Source: Companilactobacillus farciminis KCTC 3681 = DSM 20184 (GTDB taxonomy: Bacteria > Bacillota > Bacilli > Lactobacillales > Lactobacillaceae). From it: a stretch of 64,000 bases of DNA. The notes beneath the pieces are model-generated. The model was not told the origin of the DNA, did not search any database, and was given only the letters and a program-made list of their open reading frames with translations. The stretch is taken from the NCBI RefSeq assembly GCF_002706745.1, contig NZ_CP017702.1, positions 682,001 to 746,000 of the forward strand, written 5' to 3'. Both the position numbers and the translations under genes were made by a program. Numbering within the stretch: the stretch's first letter is position 1; every line of letters starts with the position of its first letter. Positions 14,410 to 41,268 of the stretch are shown piece after piece.

Positions 14410-15165
14410 TTATTTTGTGGTCTTTTCGTCATTAAAGGTAATACCGGATAGGAAGTCTTTAATTCTAGTTGTGGGATGATTGAAGAACTTATCAGGAGTG
14501 TCATCGAAGAGGATATCGCCATCTTCAACGAAGACAATCTTGTCCGCAACTGAACGAGCAAATTCCATATTGTGGGTCACGATAATCATCGATTGTCCCA
14601 TTTTACTGAGTTCTTCTAGAATCAAAAGAACTTGTGTTTCTAGCTCTGGATCCAAAGCACTCGTTGGTTCATCCAACAAGACGTATTCTGGATTCATTGC
14701 TAAAGCACGACAGATAGAGATACGTTGTTGTTGACCACCAGACAATTGACTAGGGAAACGATCAGCGTATTCTCCTAAGCCAACTTGTTCTAGCAATTTA
14801 CGAGCTTTTTCTTCAGTTTCTTGCTTAGGTCTTTTTAGAACAGTGATTGGTGCGGTAGTAATATTTTGCAACACGGTTAAATTAGGGAAGAGATTCCAGT
14901 TTTGGAAAACCATGCTAGTTTTTTTACGAATATCAAAACTGAGTTTCTTAGAAACAGGTTGGGAATAGTCTAATTTGATATCACCAAAATCTAGGATTCC
15001 ACTTTCTGGACGAACGAGTAAATCAAGTGAACGAAGCAAAGTTGATTTACCTGAACCAGAAGGTCCTAAAATAACTGTAGTTTTACCGGATGGAAAATCG
15101 ACACTCAAGTCTTTTAAAACTTCTTTGCCATCATATTTTTTAACAATATTTTTAACAGAGATCAT
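14410..15165 (-). CDS. Amino-acid (probably cystine) ABC transporter ATPase
   Basis: The 251-residue ATPase energises uptake by the adjacent permease. Walker A is GPSGSGKST, the ABC signature LSGGQQQR, Walker B YVLLDEPTSALD, and the switch histidine lies in VTHNM. These features place it in the polar-amino-acid subfamily (GlnQ/TcyC). It overlaps the permease stop by one base and is last in a minus-strand operon. Cystine as substrate is inferred from cysK and the CysE/MetA-like gene upstream in the same transcription unit. Confidence 0.88.
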   Translation of the reverse strand: MISVKNIVKKYDGKEVLKDLSVDFPSGKTTVILGPSGSGKSTLLRSLDLLVRPESGILDFGDIKLDYSQPVSKKLSFDIRKKTSMVFQNWNLFPNLTVLQNITTAPITVLKRPKQETEEKARKLLEQVGLGEYADRFPSQLSGGQQQRISICRALAMNPEYVLLDEPTSALDPELETQVLLILEELSKMGQSMIIVTHNMEFARSVADKIVFVEDGDILFDDTPDKFFNHPTTRIKDFLSGITFNDEKTTK

Positions 15166-15860
15166 TAAGCTTCACTCCCTTTAACATATTTTGAAGTTCT
15201 GCGTTCTAGATAGTGTTGCAAGAAAGTAAGCAACGTACAGATCACAGCGTAAAGGGCAGCGGCTAACGTGTACATTAGTAGTGGTTGATAGTTTTTGGCA
15301 GTGATTTGTTGACTGACTTGGAACATTTCCAAGATCGTGATTGAACTAGCCAAAGACGTATCCTTTACCAAACTAATGAATGAGTTAGAAAGTGGTGGTA
15401 AAGCAATTCTGACAGCTTGAGGCAAAACGATTTTCATCAAGGTTTGCTTAGTTGTGAAGTTCAGTGTAAAGGCAGCGTCCCATTGATCTTGAGGAACTGA
15501 TAACAAGGCTGAACGAATTGTTTCTGAAGCATAAGCACCAGTGTTCATTGAGAAACCAATTACCGCCGCAATGAAGGGTGATAATTGAATTCCGGCACTA
15601 GGTAGACCGAAGAAAATAATGAACAATTGAACTAGCAATGGGGTTGAACGAAAGACCCAAACGTAGAAGTTAGCGATGGCTCTTAGAACTAGCCAAGGAT
15701 ATTTGATCAACTTGTTTTCACTAGGTTGAATGAATTTAATCAAAGCTGTTAAAACGGCTAAGATCAATCCGAAGAAAAACGAAACTAGAGCTAGGGGAAT
15801 GGTGTACTGCAACATCGCAGTAATCATTTCCGGCAATGACGTAATGATAATGTGCCACAT
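15165..15860 (-). CDS. Amino-acid (probably cystine) ABC transporter permease
   Basis: This 231-residue membrane protein carries the HisMQ-type permease motif: TGAYASETIRSALLSVPQDQWDAAFTLNFT, with the EAA loop continuing to IVLPQAVRIALPPL. About five transmembrane segments are visible (IPLALVSFFFGLILAVLTAL near the start). A single permease gene suggests a homodimer, as in TcyB systems. It sits between the binding-protein gene (28 bp) and the ATPase (overlap). Confidence 0.87.
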   Translation of the reverse strand: MWHIIITSLPEMITAMLQYTIPLALVSFFFGLILAVLTALIKFIQPSENKLIKYPWLVLRAIANFYVWVFRSTPLLVQLFIIFFGLPSAGIQLSPFIAAVIGFSMNTGAYASETIRSALLSVPQDQWDAAFTLNFTTKQTLMKIVLPQAVRIALPPLSNSFISLVKDTSLASSITILEMFQVSQQITAKNYQPLLMYTLAAALYAVICTLLTFLQHYLERRTSKYVKGSEA

Positions 15861-15888: not shown

Positions 15889-16671
15889 TTATTTTTTAGT
15901 GATATCTTCACCGAAGTACTTAATAGAAAGTTTCTTCAAAGTTCCATCTTTTTGAAGTTCTTTAGTAGCTTTAGTTACATCTTTACTTAACTTAGTTGAC
16001 TTCTTGTTGAAGATTGGAGCAATTTTTGAAGATTTAAGTTTGCTTTCTGGAACGGTGATGTACTTAAGGTCAGTGTTCTTGTGATCTTTCTTCCATGTTA
16101 AGAAGGCTTCTTTAGAATTAAAGGCACCCTTGACACGTCCTTGGTCGATCATTGACATTGAAGTTTGGAAATCACTTGAAGGAACTACATCGGCACCGAA
16201 TTTCTTAGCATCATTGTAGTTATCTGTACCAGTACCGGCAGCAATCTTTTGACCCTTGATATCGTCAACGGAATTGATACCTGTACCATCTTTAGTAATA
16301 ACAACGGATCTTGAGTAAACATAAGGTGTTGAGAAGAGATATTGTTTCTTACGTGAAGCATTTTCAGCCACGTTATTGATAACAACATCGAAAGTATTAG
16401 AATTCAAACCGGCAATCAATGAATCCCATTTTGTTGGAACAAACTTAGCTTTTAGACCAAGCTTCTTGGCAACGGCTTTACCATAATCAACTTCAAATCC
16501 TTTAAGCTTACCATCTTCACGGTATGAATAAGGAGCATAAGTTCCTTCCAAACCAATTGTTAGTGTACCTTTAGTTTTAGTATCACTAGCATTCTTGTTA
16601 CTTGAGCAACCTGTCAAAACCAAGATCAAGGCGACAAGTGTAGTTAATATTAAAGCAATGCGCTTTTTCAT
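15889..16671 (-). CDS. Amino-acid (probably cystine) ABC transporter substrate-binding lipoprotein
   Basis: The 260-residue protein is a lipoprotein with lipobox LVLTGC (C22). It has the family-3 solute-binding fold: LTIGLEGTYAPYSYREDGKLKGFEVDYGKAVAKKL, FDVVINNVAENASRKKQYLFSTPY and GTGTDNYNDAKKF. It resembles TcyA/FliY cystine-binding proteins more than glutamine-binding ones, a judgement from memory of the families. AGGGGGA precedes the ATG. The 81-bp gap from cysK shows no clear terminator, so the transporter probably shares the cysK transcript. Confidence 0.85.
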   Translation of the reverse strand: MKKRIALILTTLVALILVLTGCSSNKNASDTKTKGTLTIGLEGTYAPYSYREDGKLKGFEVDYGKAVAKKLGLKAKFVPTKWDSLIAGLNSNTFDVVINNVAENASRKKQYLFSTPYVYSRSVVITKDGTGINSVDDIKGQKIAAGTGTDNYNDAKKFGADVVPSSDFQTSMSMIDQGRVKGAFNSKEAFLTWKKDHKNTDLKYITVPESKLKSSKIAPIFNKKSTKLSKDVTKATKELQKDGTLKKLSIKYFGEDITKK

Positions 16672-16752: not shown

Positions 16753-17676
16753 TTAAAAGTTAAATAAATCAGTTGAAAGATATCTTTCACCATTATCTGG
16801 AGCAACTGTTACGACTGTTTTTCCTTTGCCAAGCTTTTTAGCAATCTCGATGGCACCAAAGATGTTAGCACCAGCGGAGATACCTGGTAGGAATCCTTCT
16901 TTGTGACTAACTTTTTGAGCCATCTTGATAGCTTGATCACTAGTTACTTCAACGATATCTGAATATGAGTTTTTATCCAAAGTGTCAGGGATGAATCCAG
17001 CACTGATACCTTGAATTTTGTGAGCACCAGTTTTTCCTTCTTTTAGTAGAGGAGATTCAGCGGCTTCTAGAGCGTAAACTTTCACATCAGGGTATGCCTT
17101 AGTTAAAGCGTGACTAACGCCTGAGAGAGTACCACCAGTACCGACACCGGCAACGAAACCATCAACTGGAGTGTCACCAAAAGCTTCAACGATTTCTTTT
17201 CCAGTAGTAGCTTCGTGAATAGCAGGGTTAGCTGGGTTTTGGAATTGCATTGGCATGAAGTAACCATTCTCGTTGGCTAAGTCAGTAGCTTTCTTGATAG
17301 CACCACCCATACCTTTTGAACCAGGTGTCAAGATCAATTCTGTACCATAGCCTTGCATCAATTTACGACGTTCGATACTCATAGTTTCTGGCATAGTGAT
17401 GATCAAGTGATAACCTTTAGCAGCAGCAACTAATGAAAGACCAATACCAGTGTTACCAGAAGTAGGTTCAACTAGAGTGTCGCCGGGCTTGATCTTACCA
17501 GCTTTTTCAGCAGCTTCGATCATTGATAAAGCGATTCGATCCTTGATTGAGCTACCAGGATTGAAGAATTCCAATTTTACGTAAACGTCAGCGGCGTCTT
17601 CTGGTACGACTTTGTTGAGCTTTACGATAGGTGTGTTTCCAATAAGTTCAGTAATATTTTGTGCAATTTTTGTCAT
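16753..17676 (-). CDS. cysK: Cysteine synthase (O-acetylserine sulfhydrylase)
   Basis: The enzyme makes L-cysteine from O-acetylserine and sulfide using PLP. The 307-residue sequence shows the PLP lysine in [10 protein letters not shown], the substrate loop [11 protein letters not shown], the phosphate-binding GTGGTLSGV and the C-terminal [17 protein letters not shown]. It lies 13 bp after the MetA/CysE-like gene. That gene probably provides its substrate, and both are preceded by the Cys-codon leader. Confidence 0.93.
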
Positions 17677-17689
17677 AATGATTCTCTCC

Positions 17690-18484
17690 TTAGCAAGTAG
17701 TTAATTTATGTTCCGCAACTGTTTGTAACCAATTGTTGTAAAAATTTTGTTGAGTCTGTTTCCAAGAAAATACTGGTTTTTGGTCTAGTGGTGAATAATA
17801 ACCTGTAGCAGGCATGGGATGCTTGATCTTAGGACTGCCTTGTTCACGTTTTAATTCATCATCTAGTCCATCTTTTTGGTATTCCAAATGTGAAAAAATA
17901 AATGTTTGATGTTTTTTAATTGATTCAACCAAAGTCAACAAGCCATTTTCGCTGACAGCGTCGATTACTAAATCGGGATTCTCCATTAATTGTTGATGAT
18001 CCATTTCGGCATTGCGAGCATGCGGTGCTGGAAAATTATCGCCGATATTGTTGAGCAGTGGGGTATCAGTTAAAATTTGATTTTGGAAAACTCCGAAAGT
18101 TTTATGCGGTAAGATTTTTTTGTCGATATCATATAGTCTATTCAAGGCGGCCATGGCGCCCCAACAGACATAAAGTTGAGGAATATTTAATTGATCGAGT
18201 AGGTCGATTAAATCGTTGATTTCATCAAAGTACGAAACTTGAGGAAAATCTAACTTTTCAACTGGACTGCCGGTAATGATAAAGCCGTCTAGGTCTTTGA
18301 TCTCATCCAAATTCAATGGTTCCATATTGTCAGTGATGCTTGAATCGAGTTGACGGTCAACATAACGAGTAGCTGAATAATAAAATTTAATTTCTACTTC
18401 ATCGCCAAGCACTATTTGAAAATTACGCATCGTATCGAGTTTATTTTGCATTAAATTAAGAATTCCAATTTTGATAGGTTCCAC
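17690..18484 (-). CDS. MetA-family O-acyltransferase, probably serine acetyltransferase by context
   Basis: The 264-residue protein has the homoserine O-acyltransferase fold of the glutamine-amidotransferase-like class. Nucleophile C107 lies in [11 protein letters not shown]199 and E201 in FSHLEYQ, and PHARNAE is the substrate-loop motif. GTG at 18484 is the start because AAGGAGTT lies 7-8 bp upstream; the open frame beyond it runs through the leader terminator and is not translated. Adjacency to cysK and the Cys leader suggests that it acylates serine for cysteine synthesis. I recall lactobacillar members being reported with serine acetyltransferase activity. Homoserine acylation for methionine remains possible. 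Confidence 0.8.
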
Positions 18485-18505
18485 AAGTAACTCCTTCCTA
18501 AGTAG

Positions 18506-18546
18506 AAAAACAAAAAAAGCGAAGCCGACTAATGTCAACTTCGCTT
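18506..18546 (-). terminator. Leader terminator (attenuator) of the cysteine operon
   Basis: On the minus strand AAGCGAAGTTGAC (18546-18534) pairs with GTCGGCTTCGCTT (18529-18517) over 13 bp with two wobble pairs and an ATTA loop. TTTTTTTGTTTTT follows. It ends only about 20 bp before the GTG start of the acyltransferase gene and 29 bp after the leader ORF stop. Confidence 0.85.
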
Positions 18547-18574
18547 GATAGTTTTAGTTTGCACTACTTGATTA

Positions 18575-18673
18575 TCAATTGAGTGGTATTAGACATGCTG
18601 AAAAAGTATAGTAATGTTCGTTCATTACTACACAACAACATGATTCAACTTGTTTTTGATTAAAATTCAACAT
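18575..18673 (-). CDS. Cysteine-rich leader peptide (candidate attenuator uORF)
   Basis: A 32-codon ORF starts at ATG 18673-18671, with a perfect AGGAGG at 18686-18681 (7-nt spacing). It begins MLNFNQKQVES, then has three consecutive Cys codons (TGT TGT TGT, 18640-18632), then VVMNEHYYTFSACLIPLN. Four of 32 residues are Cys. Directly after the Cys run a hairpin TAGTAATG/CATTACTA (18630-18623 with 18616-18609) lies inside the ORF. The intrinsic terminator follows downstream, then the acyltransferase and cysK. The layout matches classical amino-acid attenuators. I could not define a convincing antiterminator; UUGAUA (18578-18573) with UAUCAA (18550-18545) is a weak candidate. Confidence 0.75.
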   Translation of the reverse strand: MLNFNQKQVESCCCVVMNEHYYTFSACLIPLN

Positions 18674-18708
18674 GTCTAATTCCTCCTGCAATTAAGATGG
18701 TTCAAATT

Positions 18709-18733
18709 TACAATTAAAAAAACAATAAGTCAA
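18709..18733 (-). promoter_or_regulatory. Probable promoter of the cysteine operon leader
   Basis: On the minus strand TTGACT (18733-18728) is followed after about 18 bp by TAAATT. It lies immediately after the stop codon of the upstream membrane-protein gene and about 40 bp before the leader ATG. The -10 match is weak. Confidence 0.45.
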
Positions 18734-18736
18734 GAA

Positions 18737-19198
18737 TTATTTCTTTTTCTCTGAGTAAATTGAAAGTGATTCAAATTCAAGATAAGATGCCAAAGTAAGT
18801 GATACGACTAGGATTAAGACTAACCAGCCAAGTGTTCGACCAAGAATCAAAGTTAGTGGTAAAAATGTCGCTACCAAATAGATACTGAGAACTGATAAGC
18901 AAAAGTCGACGGCTAAATTGGCACCGATAACTAGTTTACTTCTTTCCAAAATGAAGAAGAAAAGCAATTCTTTTAAAACTTTACGTGTTGAACTTCGATA
19001 CATAATCAAAACGGGACGTTGGGCAATAACTTTGACCGCAAACATACCGAAAGCACCAACGATTCCACCGACAATGATTCTCCAAGTTAAAGCGTGTAAA
19101 ACTAATGAGTTATAAGAAACGCCAATAATCGACAGACAAAGAATGTAAGGGATTATAAAGAAGAATAAATAGATTACCGCAATTTTTTTATTAGACAT
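18737..19198 (-). CDS. Small integral membrane protein of unknown function
   Basis: I do not recognise this family. The protein has 153 residues from ATG 19198 (MSNKKIAVIYLFF), chosen because AGGGAG precedes it; an upstream in-frame ATG at 19270 has no such site. Four hydrophobic segments are visible: residues 6-28, a WRIIVGGIVGAFGMFAV stretch, a long FCLSVLSIYLVATFLPLTLILG segment and LGWLVLILVVSLTLASYL. The middle cytoplasmic part is basic (RSSTRKVLKELL). It diverges from the CorC-like gene and lies just upstream of the cysteine leader, without evidence of shared function. Confidence 0.65.
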   Translation of the reverse strand: MSNKKIAVIYLFFFIIPYILCLSIIGVSYNSLVLHALTWRIIVGGIVGAFGMFAVKVIAQRPVLIMYRSSTRKVLKELLFFFILERSKLVIGANLAVDFCLSVLSIYLVATFLPLTLILGRTLGWLVLILVVSLTLASYLEFESLSIYSEKKK

Positions 19199-40980: not shown

Positions 40981-41035
40981 TAATAATTCTAATTTAAATT
41001 TAATTTTAATGATAAAAATAATGATTAGGAAAAGT

Positions 41036-41268
41036 AGTTGACCCGACCTTTACAGAGAGTTCTTGGCAGTGGAAAGAGAACATGGTGGTCAGTGAATCCA
41101 CACCTATGAATTGCAGAGCTGAACAAAGTAGGCTTTGCCGATCGGTTTCGTTATCCGAGTTGACTCAGCCAACGTGAGGTTTAATCCGCAAGGGTTAGAC
41201 GAAATGAGGTGGAACCGCGCAAATTACGTCCTCTTAGCAATTTATTTTGCTAAGGGGATTTTTTTATC
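41036..41268 (+). promoter_or_regulatory. T-box leader (histidine) of the his operon
   Basis: The leader has the conserved T-box sequence AATGAGGTGGAACCGCG (about 41203-41219) and a terminator (CCTCTTAGCAA 41230-41240 with TTGCTAAGGGG 41247-41257, then seven Ts). Stem I holds AGAGAGT, and the specifier region GAATCCACACCTATGAATTGC offers CAC (His) at 41099 or 41101. Uncharged tRNA-His should stabilise the antiterminator and allow transcription of hisZ onward. Confidence 0.88.

Follow-up and report, generated by a model that had tools for sequence, protein, structure and literature searches.

A cysteine-codon leader peptide upstream of a Companilactobacillus cysteine operon as a probable ribosome-mediated transcription attenuator

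The 64-kb stretch of Companilactobacillus farciminis DNA analysed here (64,000 nucleotides; the window) contains a short leader ORF upstream of an operon of cysteine genes. The leader, its signals, the RNA elements around it and the operon genes are all encoded on the minus strand. The leader ORF (18673-18575) has 32 codons and encodes MLNFNQKQVESCCCVVMNEHYYTFSACLIPLN. It is preceded by a Shine-Dalgarno (SD) sequence, AGGAGG (18687-18682), and contains three consecutive TGT codons, Cys12-Cys13-Cys14 (18640-18632), with a fourth TGT at codon 27 (18595-18593). A hairpin, P2 (18606..18633), begins inside the third Cys codon and pairs over 11 bp (18633-18623/18616-18606). An intrinsic terminator (18512..18546), with a stem of 13 pairs (18546-18534/18529-18517) and a T-rich tail that gives the U-tract (18518-18512), lies 5' of the first structural gene. 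The original prediction had noted the SD sequence, the ORF with its TGT run and later fourth Cys, and the terminator; the hairpin is also present, at 11 bp instead of the predicted 8 bp. A putative promoter, TTGACT-17-TAAATT (18705..18733), lies further upstream, with TTGACT at 18733-18728 and TAAATT at 18710-18705. Promoter-like -35/-10 pairs alone are not above chance, with 2 found against 1.7 expected; TTGAC is present 5' of the leader in 36/36 genomes of the genus. Terminator-like sites, namely the terminator stem and the P2 hairpin, number 2 against 0.1 expected in shuffles. The layout is that of a leader-peptide attenuator: an SD-led short ORF, predicted to be translated, near the inferred 5' end of the transcript, a run of codons for the operon's end product, and an intrinsic terminator between the ORF and the first gene.

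The first gene of the operon is a metA/HTS-like gene with a GTG start (17690..18484), whose product matches Pfam PF04204 above the cut-off and the NCBIfam MetA models below theirs. It is followed by cysK, encoding cysteine synthase A (16753..17676; TIGR01139, above cut-off), and by the genes of an ABC transporter: a family-3 solute-binding protein (15889..16671), a permease (15165..15860) and an ATPase (14410..15165). The best NCBIfam matches of these three proteins are all cystine systems and all fall below cut-off, so that cystine is the likely rather than the proven substrate. By analogy with L. paracasei (PMC6004538), the metA/HTS-like product may act as a serine O-acetyltransferase (CysE function). 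The five matched PDB sequences all carry the name homoserine O-succinyltransferase, and the CysE function is therefore given as an analogy. The predicted cysE/metA-cysK-cystine transporter operon thus stands for the metA-like gene and cysK, with the cystine type of the transporter likely and the CysE assignment analogical. The gene on the other side of the leader (18740-19198, 153 aa) adjoins it in 36/36 genus genomes and gave no match in Pfam or NCBIfam. Elsewhere, the window holds a T-box on the plus strand (41012-41236; Rfam RF00230, 122.5 bits).

Across the genus, the cystine-type transporter is found 3' of the leader in 36/36 genomes, and metA plus cysK in 29/36. The transporter alone was found behind the leader in G009 and G027, and a second transporter set occupies the metA-cysK place in G013, G018, G021, G023 and G005. 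Since the transporter is constant while metA-cysK is missing in 7/36 genomes, the leader tracks cysteine supply and not one gene. Some of the operon genes look broken: metA has an internal stop in G006, and metA and the ATPase gene of G016 and the permease gene of G013 each match in two pieces.

Six-frame reading of the window yields 983 ORFs of 15-60 codons, 2 of which contain three consecutive Cys codons (CCC). Two ORFs in this size range have a first-half ATG behind GGAGG or AGGAG, and one of them is the leader. The original prediction proposed that the ORF and its Cys run should be conserved in related genomes. A profile search with the leader peptide (E <= 0.01) found a match in 36/36 genomes of our Companilactobacillus set, and on this conservation the leader is not a chance ORF. 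An SD-like motif is present in all 36. The CCC run is kept in 35/36, with C-C-T in C. metriopterae, and the Cys codons swap synonymously between TGT and TGC. The first Cys codon is number 12 in 23/36, 13 in 11/36 and 14 in 2/36 genomes; the codons 5' of the run vary freely with the frame kept. The fourth Cys codon is lost in four genomes that read its stretch in another frame, and is thus dispensable. Persistence of the terminator after loss of the Cys codons or the ORF, which the original prediction named as evidence against it, was looked for in these relatives and not seen, with C-C-T in one genome.

The upstream regions of the genus loci L001-L029 were also read from a MetA protein search, which matched in 39/60 genomes. 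In G029 (L013/L112) the leader is present, though the first reading of the upstream region suggested its absence. At this locus, the intact leader-terminator is separated from metA by about 460 additional bases, in which an inverted repeat was noticed by eye. The window species is close to C. futsaii and C. formosensis. A DNA pattern describing the end of the leader was run against 84,980 named species genomes, a scan from which records of the window's own genome were possibly left out, and found 26 stretches, all in Companilactobacillus.

Covariation was assessed by comparing the genus alignment with 500 shuffles, which ignore relatedness. In P2, 97.7% of cells are paired, and changes on both sides occur in 7/11 pairs and 25 cells, as high as in 0/500 shuffles; its 9 further pair types were reached by 123/500. 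The terminator is 96.4% paired, with 49 double-changed cells (0/500 shuffles) and 6 such pairs (26/500), and its further pair types were reached by 500/500. The compensatory changes that the original prediction proposed to score are thus present in both stems.

The original prediction also noted a weak complementarity of 6 bp, UUGAUA with UAUCAA, beside the terminator arm. We propose that it forms the core of a larger antiterminator, in which the last codons and the stop of the leader (CUAAU..CUC..UUGAUA) would pair with the terminator 5' arm and loop. The proposed 5' strand (18573..18592) consists of CTAAT (18592-18588), CTC (18583-18581) and TTGATA (18578-18573), and includes the leader stop codon (18577-18575), which lies within this strand in 36/36 genomes. 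The 3' strand (18529..18550) consists of TATCAA (18550-18545), AAG (18541-18539) and, in the terminator loop, ATTAG (18533-18529). If each genome is allowed its own register out of three offsets, core pairs one to four form in 36/36 genomes, five pairs in 26/36 and all six in only 17/36. CUC/GAG pairs fully in 31/36, with a mismatch in the window's own CUC/AAG (4 genomes), and CUAAU pairs with the terminator loop in 35/36. In the plain alignment the antiterminator is 96.0% paired (10/500 shuffles), with 5 double-changed cells (4/500) confined to 1/14 pairs, a count that 460/500 shuffles reach. Its support inside the genus is conservation more than covariation. One core pair changes from G-C to A-U in 5 genomes, which a tree built from four neighbouring proteins resolves into 2 events. 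The 3' arm of P2 had been considered as a trp-like antiterminator strand (CATTAC/GTAGTG in the linker, by eye), an idea dropped because this pairing fails in the G001/G008 group.

Beyond the original reading, the start region of the leader can also pair with the antiterminator 5' strand. This helix, P1, has its 5' arm in the start-codon region (18666..18680) and its 3' arm at 18588..18602 (paired as 18602-18588), which overlaps the antiterminator strand AT3. P1 is 87.7% paired (8/500 shuffles) with 2 double-changed pairs (161/500), a weak covariation in the genus.

A covariance model of P2 and the terminator was searched against 397 genomes of the family and 295 of the order. Strong matches were obtained in another genus, g52, in both of the genomes covered (G092, 69.6 bits; G125, 66.1 bits), while the family outside the genus and g52 reached at most 37.7 bits. 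The g52 leaders contain CCC and precede the same transporter, 62-75% identical. Their P2 hairpins are written in other letters and have 8 and 9 bp. The antiterminator cores read CTTAAA/TTTAAG or TGAAAT/ATTTCA, with CTC/GAG and CTAAT/ATTAG kept (2/2). The leader of G125 stops early, within the P2 3' arm, so that the stop-codon rule fails there. A 42% identical relative of the 153-aa upstream gene is also located upstream of the leader in G125. The best match of the order search outside the family was G599 (40.7 bits), where a CCC leader lies ahead of a cystathionine gamma-synthase-like gene and a family-3 binding protein. Eight weak covariance matches were read at that stage and G599 alone was real; six (G329, G388, G093, G071, G463, G057) are terminators behind coding genes, and G455 is not a Cys leader. 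Further relatives may be present among the remaining weak matches. The leader peptide search of the 397 family genomes found nothing outside the genus better than E 0.001 and missed the two g52 genomes; reading three of the four peptide matches fetched outside the genus (L057, L058, L060) showed that none of the three is a leader.

The G599 peptide was matched in 31/105 genomes of its family, f3, which gene similarity to a named E. faecalis record suggests to be Enterococcaceae. Among 39 fetched matches, G705 and G497 were dropped as false, leaving 37 leaders in 29 genomes. CCC is present in 35/37. A loop pairing, CT(A/G)TT/AATAG, has five pairs in 37/37, and the stretch from CT(A/G)TT to the loop, folded alone, gives it a probability >0.5 in 36/37. 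A start-codon pairing of five pairs, the start codon included, is likewise present in 37/37, in other letters than the P1 of the genus. The stop codon lies inside CTATTAA in 29/37 and later in 8/37, and the number of the first Cys codon ranges from 10 to 18. A peptide profile search of the 295 order genomes added G504, G450, G631 and G538, placing the leader in at least 33/105 f3 genomes, and found leaders in G044 and G537 of family f9; a match in G503 was false. The first gene behind each f3 or f9 leader resembles a cysteine synthase, a cystathionine gamma-synthase or a family-3 binding protein. Six such proteins were compared with NCBIfam under a strict limit of E 1e-60: four hit enzymes of these kinds, and the other two, both binding proteins, had no hit.

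Two named species carry leaders of this kind. In E. faecalis NZ_CP143580.1, a Cys-run leader (L219:1195-1332) is annotated as the 45-aa hypothetical protein WP_002355203.1, which is probably a leader peptide. On the L. paracasei plasmid NZ_CP016356.1 (L218:1330-1515), the CCC leader MTQSMFNAINCCCRTTRFWRCSAC and a terminator precede cysK2-ctl1-cysE2-like genes; its layout is common with that of the window's leader and its letters are not alike. In both, the Cys run is followed by a hairpin, a start-region pairing is predicted and a terminator is present. Folding did not show an antiterminator with the terminator loop in either, and we therefore count them as Cys-run leaders and not as support for the antiterminator.

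On the sequence evidence, the element is very probably a ribosome-mediated transcription attenuator that senses charged Cys-tRNA. Attenuation through Cys codons, as originally predicted, finds comparative support in the retained CCC run (35/36), the compensatory changes of P2 and the terminator, and the constant cystine-type transporter (36/36). A ribosome would begin to translate the leader during transcription. With ample cysteine, it would pass the three Cys codons and reach the stop codon on the antiterminator 5' strand. There it would cover this strand, allowing the terminator to fold and transcription to end ahead of metA/cysE. When Cys-tRNA is short, the ribosome would stall at codons 12-14 and leave the strand free to pair with the emerging terminator 5' arm and loop, so that the operon would be transcribed. 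Its output would be O-acetylserine synthesis, cysteine synthase and cystine uptake. In the absence of a loaded ribosome, that strand would instead be taken up by the start region (P1), making termination the default.

We folded the RNA with ribosomes represented as masks of 28 nt, a chosen footprint, and with the transcript extended 5 or 12 nt past the start of the terminator loop. At +5 nt, the antiterminator core exceeds a probability of 0.5 in 15/36 genus genomes with no ribosome and in 15/36 with a ribosome at the first Cys codon. The count is 32/36 with a ribosome at the start, 31/36 with ribosomes at both Cys and start, and 0/36 with one at the stop. The corresponding numbers of the 36 genomes at +12 nt are 4 (none), 4 (Cys), 21 (start), 21 (Cys and start) and 0 (stop). 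For f3, with RNA ending at AATAG, the loop pairing exceeds 0.5 in 9 of the 37 leaders without a ribosome, 9 with Cys, 17 with start, 34 with Cys and start, and 0 with stop; ribosomes at stop and start together leave it in 3/37. The model is clear that a ribosome at the stop would block the antiterminator. In the genus, it is occupancy of the start and not the Cys stall that frees the strand in the model, while in f3 the modelled stall adds to start occupancy (17/37 to 34/37). The need of the stall for an occupied start site depends on letting the RNA of the model pair around the stalled ribosome.

When the terminator has been transcribed in full, it prevails in each of the six masked states (mean 0.97), and also in 6/6 genomes shown with the Cys and start masks. 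Since the full terminator wins at equilibrium, the switch must act kinetically, before the terminator 3' arm emerges. The spacing in the genus would just admit a second ribosome beside one stalled at Cys. In 8/37 f3 loci the first Cys codon is already at position 10, too close to the start for two 28-nt footprints to fit without overlap; there, crowding of the start would come from the stalled ribosome. This overlap weakens a two-ribosome reading, as does the result that, in the genus, start occupancy without a Cys stall also frees the strand.

Could the peptide, rather than the RNA, be the selected product? A conserved small peptide might act by nascent-chain arrest or be functional itself, with its C-terminus (YYTFS.CLIPLN) under selection; this C-terminus is strongly conserved in the 31 in-frame genomes compared, a set that leaves out the more diverged G034. 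Four genomes (G018, G023, G021, G005) argue against it. Their P2 loop has 10 nt, while the 32 in-frame genomes have loops of 3, 6 or 9 nt. With the 10-nt loop, the reading frame changes downstream of the Cys run, and two more bases near the end restore the position of the stop. A stretch of 36 nt is on average 88.5% identical in RNA to the 31 in-frame genomes, and encodes LLYYF(G/S)MPNTT where in-frame genomes have, for example, HYYTFSACLIPL. As the RNA is kept, the peptide replaced and the stop returned, selection in these four genomes acts on the RNA. The frame shift thus exchanges the conserved C-terminus that nascent-chain arrest would call for. The near-end codons CTA, CTC and AAT are invariant across the 31 in-frame genomes, the residues ahead of the Cys run do vary, and 8/37 f3 loci end in another frame. 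A peptide-based mechanism is accordingly very improbable. Because the Cys codons swap synonymously and the later frame shifts preserve the RNA, selection maintains codon identity in the Cys run and RNA sequence beyond it; the frame shifts found in nature point to the Cys codons as the one part that counts as codons, the remainder counting as RNA. A chance open frame before the ordinary terminator of the upstream gene has next to no probability. The abundance of short ORFs in the window would allow one, but neither the presence of the leader throughout the genus, nor the retention of its Cys run through synonymous changes, nor its recurrence in other families before cysteine-type genes would be expected.

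Direct sensing of cysteine or tRNA-Cys by a T-box or another riboswitch, with the ORF incidental, has precedent in the Cys T-box that precedes a cysteine-type ABC operon in L. paracasei (PMC6004538), and the genome that contains the window has 25 T-box matches, 7 of them over cut-off. None of the 25 is at the leader locus, however. Rfam gave no match up to E = 1 in 18480-18760, the T-box family RF00230 included, and none at gathering in 9 related loci. What is conserved is instead the ORF, P2 and the strands of the antiterminator and terminator, which makes direct sensing a highly unlikely explanation. More weight attaches to an attenuator that switches through P1, P2 and occupancy of the start site rather than through the antiterminator described above, although we still regard it as unlikely. 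P1 is predicted to be stable without a bound ribosome (mean 0.94-0.96), the f3 leaders have a start-codon pairing too, written in other letters, a ribosome at the start is enough to free the strand in most modelled genus genomes (32/36), and at equilibrium the full terminator outcompetes the antiterminator. Against it stands the complementarity of the terminator loop to the leader strand in 35/36 genus, 2/2 g52 and 37/37 f3 leaders, which a switch by P1 alone does not require. Attenuation by a ribosome at the Cys codons remains the reading we prefer.

The trp/his-type leader-peptide attenuators of Proteobacteria combine a short ORF, a codon run for the pathway amino acid, a terminator and an alternative antiterminator. 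The window's leader is like them in its short ORF, amino-acid codon run, terminator and proposed alternative antiterminator. It is unlike them in its amino acid, cysteine, and in the proposed antiterminator strand, which carries the stop and last codons of the leader and would pair with the terminator loop and 5' arm and also with the leader start region.

Cys runs have been reported upstream of cysteine genes in other bacteria. The uORFC-8-2 motif of Rhodobacterales cysS is a predicted transcription attenuator with a terminator and two adjacent Cys codons, as a rule codons 14 and 15 (PMC8632094). Compared by its description, it differs from the window's leader in phylum, in its gene (cysS), in having two Cys codons and in a first stem that contains them. 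In mycobacteria, upstream leaderless polycysteine ORFs (Canestrari 2020) are reported by a citing paper (PMC13236596) to control cysteine genes by translation attenuation; unlike these, the window's ORF is SD-led and has an intrinsic terminator. Leader-peptide attenuation in Firmicutes includes the Listeria Rli60 ilv leader, tested by mutation (PMC5864092), and the predicted His leaders of bacilli (PMC2965389), which by their descriptions differ in the amino acid (branched-chain, His). The Cys T-box of L. paracasei controls a cysteine-type ABC operon in the same family of bacteria as the window and differs in that, by the T-box model, it binds tRNA directly without a leader peptide (PMC6004538). 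In Firmicutes, leader-peptide attenuation is rarely described and T-boxes are the usual solution, a view that is partly general background and partly drawn from PMC2965389. We found no description of a cysteine leader in Lactobacillales or other Firmicutes in the open-licence literature. The kind of device is thus known, and a description of this cysteine leader family was not found there.

Relatives of the leader occur in several Lactobacillales lineages. In another strain of L. paracasei, the cysK2-ctl1-cysE2 operon is induced without cysteine and has high 5'-UTR coverage (PMC6004538). In that study, a terminator was found, premature termination was proposed, and no T-box or S-box was identified. 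A Cys leader would offer a testable answer to this riboregulator gap.

The shared-strand architecture would make the element a variant of known attenuators, if shown by experiment. It is conceivable, but on balance doubtful, that these leaders form an undescribed Lactobacillales family of self-gating Cys attenuators. In such a family, the strand near the end of the leader, usually with the stop codon, would have three partners: the leader's start site, the arm and loop of the terminator, and the ribosome that terminates translation. Readthrough would need both a Cys stall and an occupied or crowded start, and in f3 a second Cys mini-ORF would add a sensor at the level of translation.

Such a mini-ORF, M-C-C-(C/R/H), was observed in 14/15 f3 loci (L176-L216) with a cystathionine gamma-synthase-like first gene, and is absent from G654 and the other 22 f3 loci. 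By its sequence, it is a candidate for a second, translation-level cysteine sensor. It lies at most 600 nt 3' of the terminator, mostly behind a clear SD sequence, and in two cases it overlaps the start of the gene (TAATATG).
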